Shown one piece after another: positions 14,131-62,932 of a DNA stretch of 64,000 bases. Every line of letters begins with the position of its first letter. Position 1 is the first letter of the stretch. Below the pieces are notes generated by a model that had not been told where the DNA came from, ran no database searches, and saw only the letters and a program-made list of their open reading frames with translations. Position numbers and translations under genes: made by a program. This stretch comes from Actinomycetes bacterium (GTDB lineage: Bacteria; Actinomycetota; Acidimicrobiia; Acidimicrobiales; Aldehydirespiratoraceae): positions 1-64,000 of the forward strand of contig JAJRXC010000017.1 of NCBI GenBank assembly GCA_024276495.1, in the 5' to 3' direction.

Positions 14131-14696
14131 GTTCTGAACTGATCGAGTTGGTGCTCGAGGAAGCCGCCGAGAAGATGGATGCCGCGGTCAGCCATGCCCG
14201 TGAGGAGTTCTCCACCGTTCGCACGGGGCGGGCCAGCTCGGCGTTGTTCGAGAAGTTGACCGCGCAGGCCTACGGTGTCGAGATGCGGCTTCAGGAGCTC
14301 GCCAGCTTCGCCGTGCCCGAGGCGAGAATGCTCGTGGTGACACCCCACGACATCGCGAACCTCGAGGTCATCGAGCGAGCGATCGTCAACGCCAACATGG
14401 GGCTGACCCCGTCCAACGACGGCCGGGTGATCCGCCTCAACTTTCCGCCACTCACCGAGGAGCGGCGCCGCGACCTCGCCCGGGTGGTCGGCGGCATGGC
14501 GGAGGACGCGAAGCAGCGGGTCAACGCGGTGCGCCGCGCCGCTCGCAAGGATCTTGACGATCTTGAGCACGACGGGGGAGTCTCCTCCGACGACATTCAA
14601 CGTGCCGAAGGCCAACTCGATGCGCAAAAAGACGCGCGTATCGCCGCAATCGACGAGGCGCAAGCCCAGAAGGAAAAGGAGCTGATGGAGGTCTGA
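14127..14696 (+). CDS. frr: Ribosome recycling factor
   Basis: [37 protein letters not shown]-like; GTG start overlapping pyrH stop. Confidence 0.95.
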
Positions 14697-51913: not shown

Positions 51914-52270
51914 TCAGTCGGGCAACCGGCAGGCGTCGGTGGCCCCCGGGAGCTTGTGACGGAAACGGGCGACGAGCGCGTAGACCGGCCGGGCCAGCCA
52001 CGACATCGGCGCGGTGACCAGGACGCGGCCCACGACACCCCAGAAGCCGCCGGCCGCGATGAGCGCGCGTCCGATCGCGAGGTGCCCACGATGAAGGCCT
52101 CCGTCGGCGTCGACCCAGTAGGCCGCGGTCGTGACGTCGCGTTCGGTCAGCCCGAGCGCGTCGAGATCGAGGGACTGCCAGGGCTCGACGGGGGTGCCGC
52201 TCGGAAGCCGCGCCTCGATCCAGCGGGCCGAGGAGGTGCAGAACCCACAGTCGCCGTCGAACACGAGCAC
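51914..52270 (-). CDS. DCC family thiol-disulfide oxidoreductase (DUF393)
   Basis: MLVFDGDCGFCTSSARWIEARL. Confidence 0.92.
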   Translation of the reverse strand: MLVFDGDCGFCTSSARWIEARLPSGTPVEPWQSLDLDALGLTERDVTTAAYWVDADGGLHRGHLAIGRALIAAGGFWGVVGRVLVTAPMSWLARPVYALVARFRHKLPGATDACRLPD

Positions 52271-52380
52271 GGCTTCAGTCTCGCAGGTGACGCGCGAGCT
52301 CCGACATCCGGATCCGACCCCGGACGCGAGAACGCCGCCGGATGACCGGCGGCGGCGGGAAGATCGATCGATCCGCGAAG

Positions 52381-52470
52381 TCAGCTGTTGCGGCCCTGAT
52401 TGGGCTTGCGGCCGTGGTTGGCCTTGCTGCGGCGGGTCTTCGCCTTCTTCTTCTTCGTGCGCTTCGACAT
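52381..52470 (-). CDS. 29-aa highly basic protein, candidate ribosomal protein bL37
   Basis: MSKRTKKKKAKTRRSKANHGRKPNQGRNS; ANHGxxPN tail resembles actinobacterial bL37; below the supplied ORF cutoff. Confidence 0.7.
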   Translation of the reverse strand: MSKRTKKKKAKTRRSKANHGRKPNQGRNS

Positions 52471-52506
52471 GCCGGACAGGCTATCGGGCGGTTCTCGAAC
52501 CGCGAC

Positions 52507-53520
52507 TCAGGCGTGGTGGCCGCCCGTCCAGGCCAGCACGTCGTCGGCGGTCCAGGTGTTGACGATGTCGTCGACGGGCACACCGCAACGCGCCGCCTTG
52601 TCGGCGCCGTAGGGCTGCCATTCGAGCTGGCCCGTGGCATGGGCATCGGTGTTGATCGCGATCTTGCACTCCCAGTCGAGGGCGAGCTCGAGCAGCTCCT
52701 CGGGTGGGTCCTGGCGCTCGGGCCGACAGTTGATCTCGACCGCGGTGTCGAACCGGGCGCAGGCGGCGAACACGATCTCCGGATCGAACGCCGACGGGGG
52801 TCGGCCCCGCCCCACGAGCTTGCGATTGGTGCAATGGCCGAGGATGTCGGTGTGGGGGCTGGCGATGGCCATCACCATGCGTCGGGTCATCTCGTCGCGG
52901 GGGAGGCGGAGCTTGGAGTGCACGCTCGCGACGACGACATCGAGGCGGGCGAGTAGGTCGTCGGCCAGATCGAGCGTCCCGTCCTCGAAGATGTCGACCT
53001 CCATGCCGGTGAGGATCCGAAATGGTGCGACCTCGGCGTTGAGTGTGTCGATCTCGTCGAGTTGCGACCGCAGCCGCTCCTCACTGAGCCCGTGGGCGAT
53101 GGTGAGCCGGGCGGAGTGGTCGGTGATTACCATCCACTCGTGGCCGAGCGCGATCGCGGTGGCGACCATGTCGGGGAGCGGGCCGCCGCCGTCGGACCAG
53201 GTGGTGTGGACATGGCAGTCACCGCGCAGCGCGGCCAGCACCGTCTCGCCTTCGCCGACCGGGATCCGGCTGCGTTCGTCGAGTCGGGCGAGGTACCCGT
53301 CGGTTTTGTCGTCGAGCGCGTCGACGATCACCTCGGCCGTGCTCTTGCCGATGCCGTCGAGCTCGGTGAGGGTCCCGGCCGCGGCCCGTTTCGAGATCTC
53401 TTCGGGCCCGGTCGCGGCGACGACGTCGATCGCGTTGCGAAACGCCCGGATCTTCTGGCCGGGGGCCAGCTCGCGGTCGAGATAGTGAATGGCCTGCTGC
53501 AGCGCGAGGAGCGGCTCCAT
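52507..53520 (-). CDS. PHP domain protein with N-terminal HhH (PolX-type) region
   Basis: ELDGIGKSTAEVIVDAL; DCHVHTTWSDG; VITDHSARL; NTDAHATGQL. Confidence 0.92.
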   Translation of the reverse strand: MEPLLALQQAIHYLDRELAPGQKIRAFRNAIDVVAATGPEEISKRAAAGTLTELDGIGKSTAEVIVDALDDKTDGYLARLDERSRIPVGEGETVLAALRGDCHVHTTWSDGGGPLPDMVATAIALGHEWMVITDHSARLTIAHGLSEERLRSQLDEIDTLNAEVAPFRILTGMEVDIFEDGTLDLADDLLARLDVVVASVHSKLRLPRDEMTRRMVMAIASPHTDILGHCTNRKLVGRGRPPSAFDPEIVFAACARFDTAVEINCRPERQDPPEELLELALDWECKIAINTDAHATGQLEWQPYGADKAARCGVPVDDIVNTWTADDVLAWTGGHHA

Positions 53521-53967: not shown

Positions 53968-55041
53968 ATGGAACGATTCGGATTCGTCGGGCTTCCCAAC
54001 GCCGGCAAGAGCTCTCTGTACAACGCGCTCGCCGGAGGTGGCGCCCACGCGGCCCCCTACGCCTTCGCGACGACCGATCCCAACGTCGGTGTCGCGAAGG
54101 TTCCCGATGTCCGGCTCGATCGACTCGCGGTGATGAGCGGGAGCAGGAACGTCGTGCACGCGGCGGTCCAGTTCACCGACATCGGCGGGCTGGTCGAGGG
54201 CGCGAGTCAAGGAGAGGGGCTCGGCAACGCCTTCTTGTCCCACATTCGCGAGGTCGACGCGATCGTGTTCGTCCTGCGGGCGTTCCCCGACCCCGACGTG
54301 CCCGGTCCCAGCGATCCGCTCGAACATCTGCGGGTGGTCGAGATCGAGCTGGCGCTCGCCGATCTCGCCAGTGCCGAGAAGGCACTCGACAAGACCAGCC
54401 GCATGCTGAAGGGCGATGGCTCGCTGCGGTCGACCGTCGATCTCCTGCAGACCGTCGTCGACCATCTCTGCGAGGGCACGCCGTTGTATCGGGTCGGTCT
54501 CGACGACGAGGCGCGCGGGCAGCTCAAGGAGTTCTTCTTCCTCACCAACAAGCCGGTGATGGCCGTGCTCAACATCGGTGAGGACCAGATCGGCCACGAG
54601 GACGCGCTCGCGGCGCCGGTCCGAGCCGAGCTCGACGGGGCCGAGGTGGTTCCGCTCAGCGTGCAGCTCGAGGCCGAGGCCGCGTTGATGGACGCCGGCG
54701 AGCGTGAGGAGATGCTCGAGGCCCTCGGTCTCGGGGAAGGAGCGGTGCCCCGGTTCCTGAAGAGCGCCTACCACATGCTCGGCCTGCGAACGTTTCTCAC
54801 GACCGGGGAGAAGGAGAGCCGGGCGTGGACCTTCCGGGCCGGCTCGACCGCGCCCGAGTGCGCCGGTGTGATCCACACCGACTTCCAGCGCGGGTTCATC
54901 CGGGCCGAGACGATCCAGTGGGACGAGCTGCTCGAGGCGGGCTCGTGGGCCGCGGCCCGTGATGTCGGCAAGGTGCGATCCGAGGGAAAGGACTACGTCA
55001 CCCGCGACGGCGACGTCATGGAGTTCCGCTTCAACGTCTGA
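53968..55041 (+). CDS. ychF: Redox-regulated/ribosome-associated ATPase YchF
   Basis: FGFVGLPNAGKSSLYNALAGGGAHAAPYAFATTDPNVGVAKVPD; C-terminal GVIHTDFQRGFIRAETI. Confidence 0.96.
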   Translation: MERFGFVGLPNAGKSSLYNALAGGGAHAAPYAFATTDPNVGVAKVPDVRLDRLAVMSGSRNVVHAAVQFTDIGGLVEGASQGEGLGNAFLSHIREVDAIVFVLRAFPDPDVPGPSDPLEHLRVVEIELALADLASAEKALDKTSRMLKGDGSLRSTVDLLQTVVDHLCEGTPLYRVGLDDEARGQLKEFFFLTNKPVMAVLNIGEDQIGHEDALAAPVRAELDGAEVVPLSVQLEAEAALMDAGEREEMLEALGLGEGAVPRFLKSAYHMLGLRTFLTTGEKESRAWTFRAGSTAPECAGVIHTDFQRGFIRAETIQWDELLEAGSWAAARDVGKVRSEGKDYVTRDGDVMEFRFNV

Positions 55042-56229: not shown

Positions 56230-56559
56230 ATGGCGTGGCTCGTGGCCGAGGATCGTGTGGTGGCGTCGCTCGAGGTCGCGGACACTCGCGGCGCCCGGCG
56301 CCGAGGCCTGATCGGCCGCGACGGGATCGAGGGAGCGCTGCTGTTGTCGCCGGCCCGCTCCGTCCACACCATGCGAATGAGGTTCGCGATCGATGTCGCC
56401 CATCTCGACGCCGACATGACGGTGCTGTCGGTGGTGACGATGCCGCCGTGGCGAATCGGCCGGTGGCACCCGCGGGCCCGCCACGTGATCGAGGCGGAGG
56501 CGGGTTCGTTGCGACGTTGGGGCATCGAGCCGGGCGTCACGATCGAAGTTCGTTCATGA
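56230..56559 (+). CDS. DUF192 family protein
   Basis: RRRGLIGRDGIEGALLLSPARSVHTMRMRFAIDVAHLD. Confidence 0.88.
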   Translation: MAWLVAEDRVVASLEVADTRGARRRGLIGRDGIEGALLLSPARSVHTMRMRFAIDVAHLDADMTVLSVVTMPPWRIGRWHPRARHVIEAEAGSLRRWGIEPGVTIEVRS

Positions 56560-57419
56560 GCGGTTCCCCGGCGCCCGGCGCCCTCGTGTTGATCGCGACC
56601 CCCATCGGGAATCTGGGCGACCTCTCGTCGCGGGCGGCGGAGGAGCTCGCCACCGCCTCCCTGATCTGTTGCGAGGACACGCGGCGCACGGGTCGTCTGT
56701 TGGCGCACCTGGGGCTCACGGGTCGGCGACTCCGACGGGTCGACGATCACACCGAAGCGGCCGAGGTCGATGACGTGGCCGCCCGCATCGGGGCCGGTCA
56801 GCGCGTCGCCCTGGTGTCCGACGCGGGGACACCGGGGATCTCCGATCCGGGGGCGCGGCTCGTCGCCGGGGTGATCGCGGCAGGTCACCCGGTGACGGTG
56901 GTCCCCGGGCCGGTCGCCGCGGTCGCGGCCCTCGTGGCGAGCGGCGCGGTCACCGATCGTTTCGTCTTCGAGGGGTTCTTGCCCCGCGAGGGTCGGGAGC
57001 GCCGGCGTCGACTGGCCGAGATCGCGACCGAGTCCCGCACCGTCGTGCTCTACGAGTCACCGAAGCGGATCGGGTCGATGCTCGAGGCCTTGATCGAGGT
57101 GTGTGGCGGCGACCGGCGGGCGACGATCGCCCGCGAGATCACGAAGCTGCACGAGGAGTTCGTCCGGGGCTCGCTCGCCGAGCTGTCGGATTGGGCGGCG
57201 ACGCCGCCGAAAGGAGAGATCGTCGTGGTGATCGAGGGGGCGCCGGCGATGCCGGATGCCACCGACGAAGTCATCGTCGCGGCGTTGACCACCGAGCTCG
57301 CGGGAGGGGCGAGTCGACGCGACGCGACCGCCGCGGTGGCGGAGATGTTGGGGGTCGGGCACCGGCGGACCTACGAGCTGGCGATCGGCATCCCCGGGAG
57401 TGTCACACCCCCTTCGTAG
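56556..57419 (+). CDS. rsmI: 16S rRNA (cytidine-2'-O)-methyltransferase RsmI
   Basis: LVLIATPIGNLGDLSSRA; CEDTRRTGRLL; VSDAGTPGISDPG. Confidence 0.95.
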   Translation: MSGSPAPGALVLIATPIGNLGDLSSRAAEELATASLICCEDTRRTGRLLAHLGLTGRRLRRVDDHTEAAEVDDVAARIGAGQRVALVSDAGTPGISDPGARLVAGVIAAGHPVTVVPGPVAAVAALVASGAVTDRFVFEGFLPREGRERRRRLAEIATESRTVVLYESPKRIGSMLEALIEVCGGDRRATIAREITKLHEEFVRGSLAELSDWAATPPKGEIVVVIEGAPAMPDATDEVIVAALTTELAGGASRRDATAAVAEMLGVGHRRTYELAIGIPGSVTPPS

Positions 57420-58828: not shown

Positions 58829-60490
58829 ATGTCGACCCCTGTCCTCGTCGCCGTTGCCTGGCCCTACGCATCGGGCTCGCGGCATCTCGGTCATCTGGCC
58901 GGCGCCTATCTGCCGGCCGACGTGTTCGCCCGCCACCAACGGCGGGTCGGCAACGAGGTCCTGATGGTCTCGGGGTCCGATGTGCACGGCACCCCGATCA
59001 CGGTGCGGGCCGACGCCGAAGGGGTGACGCCGCAGGACATCGTCGACCGCTATCACGGTGAGTTCCTGCGCCAGTGGGACGCGGTCGGGATCTCGTGGGA
59101 CAACTACACGACCACCGGCACCGAACATCACGCCCGGGTCACCCAGCAGATGTTCCTGCGTCAGCTCGAGAACGGCCACATCGACAAGCGCACCTCGGAT
59201 CAGTTCTACGACCCCGAGGCCGAGCGCTTCCTGCCCGACCGCTACATCGAGGGGACCTGCCCGTACTGCGGCTACGGCGAAGCGCGCGGCGACCAGTGCG
59301 ACAACTGCGGACGGACCCTCGATGCCACCGAGCTCGGAGATCCTCGTTCGAAGATCACGGGCGTCACCCCCGAGCTGCGGGCGACCGAGCACTTCTTCTA
59401 CCGCTACTCCGACTTCACCGAGCGGCTCGCCACCTGGCTGAAGGCGAAACGGGGCTGGCGACCCCACGTCCTCAACTTCGCGCTCGGCTGGACCGAGGAG
59501 GACGGCCTGCACGATCGGGCCATCACCCGCGATCTCGACTGGGGCATCGAGGTCCCGGTCGACGATCTCGGGCCGGGCAAGCGCATCTACGTCTGGTACG
59601 ACGCGGTCATCGGCTACCTCTCCGCCTCACAGGAATGGGCGTCGCTTCGCGGCGACGAGGAGCAGTGGCGCCACTGGTGGGAGAACGACGACGCCCGCCA
59701 CGTCTACTTCATCGGGAAGGACAACATCCCGTTCCACTGTCTGTTCTGGCCCGCCCAGCTCATGGGTGCCGGCGACCTCCACCTGCCCGACGACGTTCCC
59801 GCCAACCAGTACGTCACGTTCAAGGGCGGGAAGGCGTCGGCGAGCCGGGGCATCGGTCTCACGATCGAAGAAGGGCTCGACCTCTTCCAACCCGACGGGC
59901 TGCGCTACGCCCTCGCGGCGAACTTCCCCGAGCAGGCCGACACCGAGATCTCGATCGAGGAGATCGCCCGCCGGATCAACGAGGAGCTCGTCGCCACCTG
60001 GGGCAACCTCGTCAACCGGGTGCTCGCGATGGTGCACAAGAACCATGGTGTCCAGCCCCGTTCCGATGGTCGAACCGGCGCGGACGCGGCGCTGTTGGCG
60101 ACGGTCGATCAGTTCCTGACGACCAGCGGCGAACAGATCGAGCGGGTCGAGCTCCGGGCCGCGCTGCGCACCGCGATGGACGGGGCCCAGGCCATCAACG
60201 CGTACCTCAACGCCACCGAGCCGTGGAAGCTGGCCAAGGTCGATCCCGACCGGGCCGGTGTCGTTCTGGCGACCGCGCTCGACGCGATCAACGCGATCCG
60301 CATCGCGTTCAGCCCGTTCCTGCCGTTCAGCAGCGCCCGCCTCGACGAGGTGCTCGGCGAGGTCGACGGTTGGCGGTCGGTCGCGGTCGAACCCGGCACC
60401 GTCATCGACAAGCCGGTCCCGCTCTTCGAGAAGGTCGATGTCGCGGAACTTCTCGCCGCGACCGGCGTCGATGGAGATGCCGGAGACTGA
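58829..60490 (+). CDS. metG: Methionyl-tRNA synthetase
   Basis: WPYASGSRHLGHLAGAYLPADVFARH; CPYCGYGEARGDQCDNCG; FKGGKASASRG. Confidence 0.96.
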   Translation: MSTPVLVAVAWPYASGSRHLGHLAGAYLPADVFARHQRRVGNEVLMVSGSDVHGTPITVRADAEGVTPQDIVDRYHGEFLRQWDAVGISWDNYTTTGTEHHARVTQQMFLRQLENGHIDKRTSDQFYDPEAERFLPDRYIEGTCPYCGYGEARGDQCDNCGRTLDATELGDPRSKITGVTPELRATEHFFYRYSDFTERLATWLKAKRGWRPHVLNFALGWTEEDGLHDRAITRDLDWGIEVPVDDLGPGKRIYVWYDAVIGYLSASQEWASLRGDEEQWRHWWENDDARHVYFIGKDNIPFHCLFWPAQLMGAGDLHLPDDVPANQYVTFKGGKASASRGIGLTIEEGLDLFQPDGLRYALAANFPEQADTEISIEEIARRINEELVATWGNLVNRVLAMVHKNHGVQPRSDGRTGADAALLATVDQFLTTSGEQIERVELRAALRTAMDGAQAINAYLNATEPWKLAKVDPDRAGVVLATALDAINAIRIAFSPFLPFSSARLDEVLGEVDGWRSVAVEPGTVIDKPVPLFEKVDVAELLAATGVDGDAGD

Positions 60491-60492
60491 TC

Positions 60493-61245
60493 GTGGCCTG
60501 GGTCGATCATCACTGTCATCTCGCCCCCGGCGCCGACGGGGAGCGCCGGATCGAAGAGGCTCGACGCGCCGGCGTCGGCCGGCTGGTCACGGTGGGGACC
60601 ACGGTGGCGCAGAGCCGCCAGATGATGGCGATCGCCCGACACCACGAAGGCGTGTGGGCGACTGCGGGCGTGCATCCCCATGATGCCGCCGATGGAATCG
60701 ACGGGCTCGACGAGCTCCTCGACGCACCAGAGGTCGTCGCGGTGGGGGAGTGCGGGCTCGACTACCACTACGACCATTCGCCACGCGACGCCCAGGCCGA
60801 CGCGTTTCGACGCCAGATCGGCCTCGCCCACGCGCGCGACATGCCCCTGGTGATCCACACGCGGGCGGCGTGGGCGGAGACGTTCGAGATCCTCGACCGG
60901 GAGGGCACCCCCCGGCGCACCGTCTTTCACTGCTTCACCGGCGGTGTCGACGAAGGGGCCGAATGCCTCGCACGCGGGGCCAACCTGTCGTTCTCGGGCA
61001 TCATCACCTTTCCCAGCGGTGGCGACCTGCGTGACGCCGCGGCGGCCTGTCCGCTCGATCGAGTGTTGGTGGAGACCGACAGCCCGTATCTCGCGCCGGT
61101 CCCTCATCGAGGGAAGACGAACCGGCCGGCGTTGGTCCCACTGGTCGGCGCCGCGGTGGCCGCGGCGATGAACCGGCCGGTCGAGGAAGTGGAAGCGGCC
61201 ACGTCGTCGAACGCCGCGACGTTCTACTCGTTCGACGCGCCCTGA
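60493..61245 (+). CDS. tatD: TatD family hydrolase
   Basis: VDHHCHLAPG; AVGECGLDYHYDHSP; VFHCFTGG; VLVETDSPYLAP; GTG start. Confidence 0.94.
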   Translation: MAWVDHHCHLAPGADGERRIEEARRAGVGRLVTVGTTVAQSRQMMAIARHHEGVWATAGVHPHDAADGIDGLDELLDAPEVVAVGECGLDYHYDHSPRDAQADAFRRQIGLAHARDMPLVIHTRAAWAETFEILDREGTPRRTVFHCFTGGVDEGAECLARGANLSFSGIITFPSGGDLRDAAAACPLDRVLVETDSPYLAPVPHRGKTNRPALVPLVGAAVAAAMNRPVEEVEAATSSNAATFYSFDAP

Positions 61246-61368: not shown

Positions 61369-62115
61369 CTGGACGGACCAACTCGGGCATCGCTGCGGGT
61401 CGCGTCGTTCACGGTCGCGGCGGCGGTGTTCATCGCCAGCACGATCCAACCCGCCGCGGGGGCCACCGCGGTGCTCGACGCCGATCTCGCGGCCTTCTCG
61501 TCTCGCGCCCAGCAGTGGACCGAGGCCCGTCAGGTTCGACGAGAGGCGGCACTGGTCCAGGCGCTGGCCCTCGCCGCCGACGCCCGTCAGGCCGAAGAAC
61601 ACCGGCTGGCCGATGCCGAAGCCGCCCGGGCCGAGGCCGCGGCCCGACTCCGGGCCGCGGAGATCGCCGCCGAGACCACGACCACCACCGCCGCGCCGAC
61701 GACCACCGCGGCCCCCACGACCGCGCCGCCGACGACCGTCGCCCCGGCCGAGCCGCCGACCACCGCCGAACCGACGACCACCGCCCCGACGACCACCGCG
61801 GCCCCGGCTGAGCCGCCGCCGACCACGACGGCGCCCCTCGCGACCGGCCCGACCCCGGCCCAGTGGGAAGTGCTTCGCCAATGTGAGTCGAGCGGCAACT
61901 ACACGATCGTGAGCCGGAACGGGCGGTACCGGGGCGCCTACCAGTTCTCCCAGGCCACCTGGGACTGGATCGCGTCATCCGCCGCGCCGGCGCTGGTGGG
62001 AGTGGACCCGATCGCCGCCTCTCCCGGAGACCAGGACGCCATGGCCCTCGCGTTGTGGAACCGCCAAGGCTGGTCGCCGTGGCCGATCTGCGGTGTCGCG
62101 GCCGCGGCTGCGTGA
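61369..62115 (+). CDS. Secreted resuscitation-promoting-factor-like transglycosylase with Thr/Pro-rich linker
   Basis: QWEVLRQCESSGNYTIVSRNGRYRGAYQFSQATWDW...DQDAMALALWNRQGWSPWPICG; CTG start gives an intact signal peptide. Confidence 0.85.
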   Translation: MDGPTRASLRVASFTVAAAVFIASTIQPAAGATAVLDADLAAFSSRAQQWTEARQVRREAALVQALALAADARQAEEHRLADAEAARAEAAARLRAAEIAAETTTTTAAPTTTAAPTTAPPTTVAPAEPPTTAEPTTTAPTTTAAPAEPPPTTTAPLATGPTPAQWEVLRQCESSGNYTIVSRNGRYRGAYQFSQATWDWIASSAAPALVGVDPIAASPGDQDAMALALWNRQGWSPWPICGVAAAAA

Positions 62116-62932
62116 GTCGTTGACCCACTCCCCCCGGGATCTGCGGGATCTCCTCGCCCGGTTCGGTCTCGAGCCCCGGCGCGCCCTCGGCCAGAACTTC
62201 GTCGTCGACCCCAACACGGTTCGCCGGATCGCGGGCCTCGCCGAGGTGGGTCGGGGAGACCATGTGGTCGAGATCGGCGCCGGCCTGGGATCGCTCACGC
62301 TGGCCCTGGCCGAGCGCGGCGCGAGCGTCGTCGCCGTCGAGAAGGACCGTGACCTCGTGGCCGCGCTCCGAGAGGTCGTCGCCGCCGACGACGTCCGGGT
62401 CGTCGAAGGCGACGCGCGGGAGCTCGACTGGGACGTGGTGCTGGGGGATCACGACCCGTGGTCGCTCGTGGCCAACCTTCCCTACAACGTGGCGACGCCA
62501 CTCGTCCTCGACCTGCTCCGTGACGTTCCCCGGATCGAGTCGATGCTGGTCATGGTCCAGCGTGAGGCGGGGGAGCGGCTGGCCGCCGGCCCGGGGACCA
62601 AGGCGGTGGGGATCCCCTCGATGCTGGTGGCCTACCACGGACGCGCCCGGGTGGTCGCGCAGGTACCGGCATCGGTGTTTCACCCTCGCCCCCGGGTGGA
62701 GTCGGTGCTTGTGCGCATCGTGCGCCACGATCGGGCGCCCGTCGACACCCCGATCGAGGTGATCGATCCGGTGCTTCGGGCCGCGTTCGGCCAACGACGA
62801 AAGATGCTGCGACGGTCGCTGGCGGGCCGGGTCGATGCCGACGGATTCGAGGTCGCCGACGTGGATCCCCGGGCCCGGCCGGAAACCCTCGATCTCGCCG
62901 CCTGGTCGCGATTGGCCGCTCAGGCCCGTTGA
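62093..62932 (+). CDS. rsmA: 16S rRNA dimethyladenosine transferase RsmA/KsgA
   Basis: RRALGQNFVVDPNTVRRIAGLA; VVEIGAGLGSLTLAL; VANLPYNVATPLVL. Confidence 0.95.
   Translation: MSRPRLRESLTHSPRDLRDLLARFGLEPRRALGQNFVVDPNTVRRIAGLAEVGRGDHVVEIGAGLGSLTLALAERGASVVAVEKDRDLVAALREVVAADDVRVVEGDARELDWDVVLGDHDPWSLVANLPYNVATPLVLDLLRDVPRIESMLVMVQREAGERLAAGPGTKAVGIPSMLVAYHGRARVVAQVPASVFHPRPRVESVLVRIVRHDRAPVDTPIEVIDPVLRAAFGQRRKMLRRSLAGRVDADGFEVADVDPRARPETLDLAAWSRLAAQAR

Follow-up and report, generated by a model that had tools for sequence, protein, structure and literature searches.

The question raised by this locus is whether an intact 29-codon reading frame, described in a first-pass annotation as unlisted because of its length and as resembling the ribosomal protein bL37, is a genuine gene, and what it encodes. 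We analyzed the frame within a 64,000-nucleotide stretch of DNA (the window) and within the 4.33-Mb genome to which it belongs, where it lies on contig C4. On the sequence evidence set out below, we are almost certain that it encodes the bL37 orthologue of Acidimicrobiia, a protein of the 50S subunit.

Coding status of the reading frame

Positions 52381..52470 of the minus strand (ATG at 52470-52468, TGA at 52383-52381) translate exactly as MSKRTKKKKAKTRRSKANHGRKPNQGRNS followed by the TGA stop. This is the intact ATG-to-TGA frame of 29 aa originally described, and homology and conservation mark it as a bL37 homologue. The frame appears, with its ATG start, in a mechanical ORF list; its small size is consistent with the earlier remark that length had kept it unlisted.

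A short, composition-biased peptide of this kind could be a functionless chance Lys/Arg-rich ORF, or the shadow of an opposite-strand gene, and three plus-strand ORFs (52131-52562, 52342-52956 and 52400-52612) overlap the site. Against this, KANHG[KR][KR]PN is expected by chance, over six frames and given base composition, only 3e-7 times in the window and 2e-5 times in the 4.33-Mb genome. A tblastn search of relatives, proposed along with the bL37 suggestion, found the ORF conserved in 37 of 41 genomes (its own and 40 relatives) with E-values from 3e-12 to 7e-3; other stretches of these genomes scored about 0.1 or worse, and the next-best match in the window's own genome had an E-value of 0.9-1.5. 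Among 22 same-family orthologues, mean DNA identity was 84% within the ORF and fell to 35% and 31% over the 60 nt immediately upstream and downstream, respectively, and mismatches at codon positions 1, 2 and 3 numbered 79, 66 and 169. Identity limited to the ORF, together with this third-position excess, is what purifying selection on a translated frame leaves behind. Moreover, start, stop and frame are kept across many families, the excess falls in the bL37 frame, and the unconserved flanks speak against the shadow of a longer opposite-strand gene. A chance or shadow origin is refuted by these conservation results, and we give it essentially no weight.

Contig C11 of the window genome has a further DNA match; it was rejected as a bL37 paralogue, being a Lys/Ala-rich tail on GAPDH. 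This GAPDH (C11 ~14400-14610; L002:1400-1606) seems to end in a histone-H1-like tail of about 35 residues rich in Lys, Ala and Pro.

Identity of the peptide and its occurrence in Acidimicrobiia

The peptide has the size and basicity of bL37, a protein of about 24 aa with an N-terminal Lys/Arg segment. Alignment bore out the proposed match to mycobacterial bL37: the 29-aa window form is colinear with it over residues 1-24, and the KANHG loop is common to both, KANHGRKPN of the window peptide corresponding to the ANHG-[KR]-[KR]-PN C-terminal loop of bL37. Twenty-eight members were aligned, including eight from actinobacterial families outside Acidimicrobiia, and K16, A17, N18, H19, G20 and P23 were invariant among them. 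Several other actinobacterial bL37 sequences (L037, L039, L041, L043 and L048) have G or A in place of the first K of KANHG, and the loop core is therefore given as ANHG-x-x-PN.

A Pfam search of the 29-aa peptide returned no match. The sole match in an NCBIfam scan was NF047428 (ribo_Myco_bL37), at 25.5 bits (E 1.1e-5); the curated cut-off is 30 bits, which makes the peptide a bL37 homologue rather than a formal match to the model. This cut-off is an annotation threshold, and the model was built on mycobacterial-type forms. The low score is probably explained by a one-residue insertion before KANHG. Same-order members lacking the insertion pass the cut-off (G206, 36.9 bits; G120, 31.6 bits), and their bL37 genes are found at the corresponding point of the conserved gene order. 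All 28 aligned members matched NF047428, the eight non-Acidimicrobiia rows having been found with that model. Because the window peptide itself misses the cut-off, its assignment rests also on these linking orthologues, on gene order and on conservation.

Comparison with solved structures by phmmer gave five PDB matches, all to bL37 chains or an equivalent chain and all aligned within residues 1-24. The best E-value, 0.018, is as weak as expected for a single sequence with 24 aligned residues, and Lys/Arg composition bias inflates the scores of the N-terminal half. A profile that included mycobacterial rows reached E 3.6e-10 and was discarded as circular evidence. An Acidimicrobiia-only profile, used instead, still ranked bL37 chains first (E 0.0012), and the link to bL37 is thus independent of the mycobacterial rows. 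Collectively, the PDB and NF047428 matches, conservation and gene order support the resemblance to bL37 first noticed at this locus.

The C. acnes bL37 peptide has been reported to inhibit Gram-positive staphylococci in disk assays (PMC10085706), which lends some color to the idea that the window gene encodes a small basic protein, of a nucleic-acid-binding or antimicrobial type, that acts off the ribosome and has only the KANHG-x-x-PN loop in common with bL37. We judge this idea very improbable. The alignment with bL37 is colinear over its full length, and conservation is wide and vertical-looking at a single gene location. Furthermore, the neighbors are translation and rRNA-modification genes and bS22, and no secretion signal is apparent by eye in the 29-aa sequence. 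As an orthologue of bL37, the peptide would be translated and bind the ribosome in Acidimicrobiia.

The C-terminal extension claimed for the peptide is real and class-wide, a tail of the form -xGRNS, -xGRN or -xGRG being common to the whole of Acidimicrobiia; it is not peculiar to this lineage, as -AGR, -AGK and -AGRKG tails are found in other actinobacterial families too. The deep-branching actinobacterial lineage to which the peptide had been ascribed proved to be Acidimicrobiia/Acidimicrobiales from the named orthologue contigs, the best of which are mostly Acidimicrobiales/Acidimicrobiaceae MAGs, the top ones showing 83-90% identity over all 29 residues. That bL37 reaches this lineage was likewise found, and is less surprising than first supposed, the protein having already been reported as general in high-G+C actinobacteria (PMC5876184) and a bL37 model for planctomycetes already standing in NCBIfam. 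Profile A1 detected bL37 in 13 of 13 same-order genomes (counting the window's own) and in 3 of the 4 remaining class members in a draw from the phylum, and in 210 of 296 Acidimicrobiia genomes in a draw from the class. With the 37 of 41 genomes above and the members from other actinobacterial families, conservation is broad.

Matches are missing in some genomes that carry ychF, so that bL37, though widespread in Acidimicrobiia, is not universal there. Some otherwise complete genomes, same-order members included, have ychF and no bL37 match. Eight genomes (G012, G027, G039, G217, G239, G257, G276 and G387) have ychF and no obvious bL37 within 1.5 kb or in a whole-genome search; loss, relocation or divergence would each account for them. 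More generally, where an Acidimicrobiia genome has no match, bL37 may be dispensable, replaceable or too divergent. All of the f91 genomes listed (~1.1 Mb and probably streamlined) lack a bL37 match. Absence from G016, which has neither a bL37 nor a ychF match, and from G449, where ychF stands at a contig end, likely reflects assembly gaps.

Start signals and gene neighborhood

A putative -10 box, TAGCCT (52478..52483, minus strand), begins 13 nt before the ATG, and its TANNNT pattern is conserved among orthologues. Leaderless genes in high-G+C bacteria are marked, according to published work, by a TANNNT core some 12 bp upstream of the start (PMC3160421), and in M. tuberculosis TANNNT serves as the -10 motif, with no conserved -35 (PMC3898074). 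The box predicts a transcript that begins with the A of the ATG or close to it, and the mRNA is probably leaderless. TANNNT beginning 12-17 nt before the start, with a peak at 13-15, was present in 119 of 131 distinct Acidimicrobiia-type orthologue upstreams, some of which come from closely related species and are not fully independent. Shuffled upstreams carried the motif at that position in a mean of 6.1 cases (maximum 12), and a comparable box preceded 25 of 1,364 background ATGs in the window. A Shine-Dalgarno-like tetramer was found in 21 of the 131 Acidimicrobiia-type upstreams versus 19 of the 24 remaining bL37 genes, nearly all of which come from other actinobacterial families.

The upstream same-strand neighbor encodes a PolX-like protein with HHH_8 and PHP domains (52507..53520, minus strand; start inferred), and 36 nt separate its stop from the bL37 ATG. 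This short gap would suit a rival account, of expression but not of identity, in which bL37 is transcribed solely at the far end of a polX transcript and has no leaderless promoter of its own. A scan for the sigma-70 -35/-10 consensus found nothing, as that account would have it; the failed scan is, however, uninformative, because M. tuberculosis TANNNT promoters lack a conserved -35 (PMC3898074). Moreover, several families have no PolX at this position, yet the -10 box stands at -12..-17 in the 119 upstreams noted above. In the window's family and some others (L074, L077 and L187), PolX separates bL37 from ychF; it is missing there from L075, L186 and L188-L194 and from the shortest versions of the cluster. 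We therefore consider exclusive co-transcription with polX unlikely and favor a leaderless promoter directly before bL37.

About 26 nt after the stop is a hairpin without a T run (52333..52354, minus strand), its perfect 9-bp G+C stem reading CGCCGCCGG-TCAT-CCGGCGGCG. A fold of 71 nt around it gave a z of only -1.35, which is not significant, and the hairpin is at best a possible candidate terminator. The downstream neighbor, a DCC1-like thiol-disulfide oxidoreductase gene (51914..52270, minus strand), lies outside the bL37 unit. Farther along the same strand, the window encodes a queuosine salvage protein (Q_salvage, PF10343; 48407-49489).

Divergent from bL37, on the plus strand, is a translation-related cluster that begins with the ychF GTPase gene (53968..55041; start inferred). 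It continues with an rsmI-like methyltransferase ORF (TP_methylase; 56235..57419, start tentative, the domain beginning at about residue 117), metG for methionyl-tRNA synthetase (58829..60490), a tatD-like DNase gene (60502..61245, start approximate, the domain part of ORF 59074-61245) and ksgA (rsmA) for 16S rRNA adenine dimethyltransferase (62093..62932). A gene for bS22, a COX24_C-like protein of sequence VGSLVKKRRKRMRKKKHKKMLRRTRHQRRK, follows 0.7 kb past the window end on the minus strand (C4:64667-64753; L071:17668-17757). It has a GTG start with a TAACGT box 14 nt before it, and a comparable -10 box precedes the Acidimicrobiia bS22 genes read.

This arrangement recurs in most Acidimicrobiia regions compared, which were picked partly for having both genes on one contig and are not a random sample: bL37 is divergent from ychF or rsmI, metG, tatD, ksgA and ispE follow on the opposite strand, and bS22 stands on the bL37 strand at the far end of the ychF-rsmI-metG-tatD-ksgA-ispE cluster. 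We detected bS22 in 36 of the 41 relatives at E <= 1, with 28 of them above the Pfam cut-off. Thirty-one Acidimicrobiia genomes had bL37 and bS22 on one contig, 5-25 kb apart in 29 (26 of these on the same strand); the exceptions to this spacing were G009 and G026. Where non-Acidimicrobiia genomes, mycobacterial and others, had both genes on one contig, hundreds of kilobases separated them.

Proposed role and comparison with known systems

In M. smegmatis, the pocket that holds bL37 is formed by H39, H40, the H41/H42 joint, H72 and H89; those who discovered the protein there described it as confined to high-G+C actinobacteria (PMC5876184). C. acnes bL37 lies below the tip of 5S rRNA and has been proposed to link H39, H40, H72, H89 and 5S rRNA (PMC10085706); the exact function of the protein is still open (PMC6133939). 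For the window gene we infer transcription, translation, ribosome incorporation, a binding site and an effect on the peptidyl transferase center. The -10 box immediately ahead of the ATG would serve the gene as its own promoter element, and the resulting mRNA would be translated without a leader. Going by homology to the mycobacterial and Cutibacterium proteins, an N-terminal basic helix (approximately residues 1-15) and the KANHG-x-x-PN loop would occupy the 50S pocket of 23S H39-H42, H72 and H89 and the 5S rRNA tip, where bL37 may brace H89 beside the peptidyl transferase center, and the -xGRNS tail would lengthen the C-terminal loop by about four residues. A bolder proposal, tentative and on balance doubtful, is that Acidimicrobiia bL37 is a structural variant whose longer basic segment and -xGR(N/G)(S) tail add a 50S contact, and that bL37 and bS22 form a leaderless pair bracketing the rRNA-methylation/translation cluster, kept for coordinated expression.

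The bL37 family, its general spread in actinobacteria and a planctomycete model were already known, and the window gene is not a new kind of protein. The new information is modest and concerns the type of start, the insertion and the order of the genes. The bL37 literature that we found names no Acidimicrobiia, in a search whose coverage was thin for subscription journals, and earlier reports are possible. Automated annotation likely omits bL37 from this class because most same-order forms score below the NCBI model cut-off; an alignment allowing the insertion and tail would be a simple fix. The results fill an annotation gap by placing in Acidimicrobiia bL37, which together with bS22 makes up the pair of extra ribosomal proteins of actinobacteria. 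The probable leaderless start and the neighborhood common with bS22 are testable leads on the expression of tiny ribosomal proteins.

Among known systems, the planctomycete NCBIfam model NF047429 (ribo_Plancto_bL37) shares the product name and matches 7 of the 28 aligned members weakly (best E 9e-5), but is longer (32 positions) and has a cut-off of 40 bits. At E <= 0.01 it matched nothing in the window genome, its cut-off was not reached, and one weak, unrelated-looking match was seen in the 21 genomes searched; we rejected it as a description of the window gene. A literature search for bL37 in planctomycetes found no paper. In Borrelia, an N-terminal extension of uL30 is reported in the same 50S pocket and has been proposed as a stand-in for bL37 (PMC10618245). 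The extension there is fused to uL30, whereas uL30 is short in the window genome, so that no such extension fills the bL37 pocket. It is also short in the other actinobacterial sequences read, with or without bL37, and a Borrelia-type stand-in therefore fails to account for the absences of bL37 here.

The 24-aa bL37 of Cutibacterium acnes (PDB 8crx chain V) has the ANHG-x-x-PN loop and was tied best match of the Acidimicrobiia-only profile; it lacks the tail and differs in spacing between basic segment and loop. Compared with bL37 of M. smegmatis and M. tuberculosis (PDB 5o60 chain 3, 7kgb chain v; NF047428), the window form has one extra residue before KANHG and an -xGRNS tail in place of a single terminal residue. 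Its putative leaderless start contrasts with the Shine-Dalgarno-like site of mycobacteria, and its gene adjoins ychF/rsmI, neither of which is near the mycobacterial gene. The two forms are nonetheless alike in start, basic N-terminus, SKANHG-[RK][RK]-PN loop and size.
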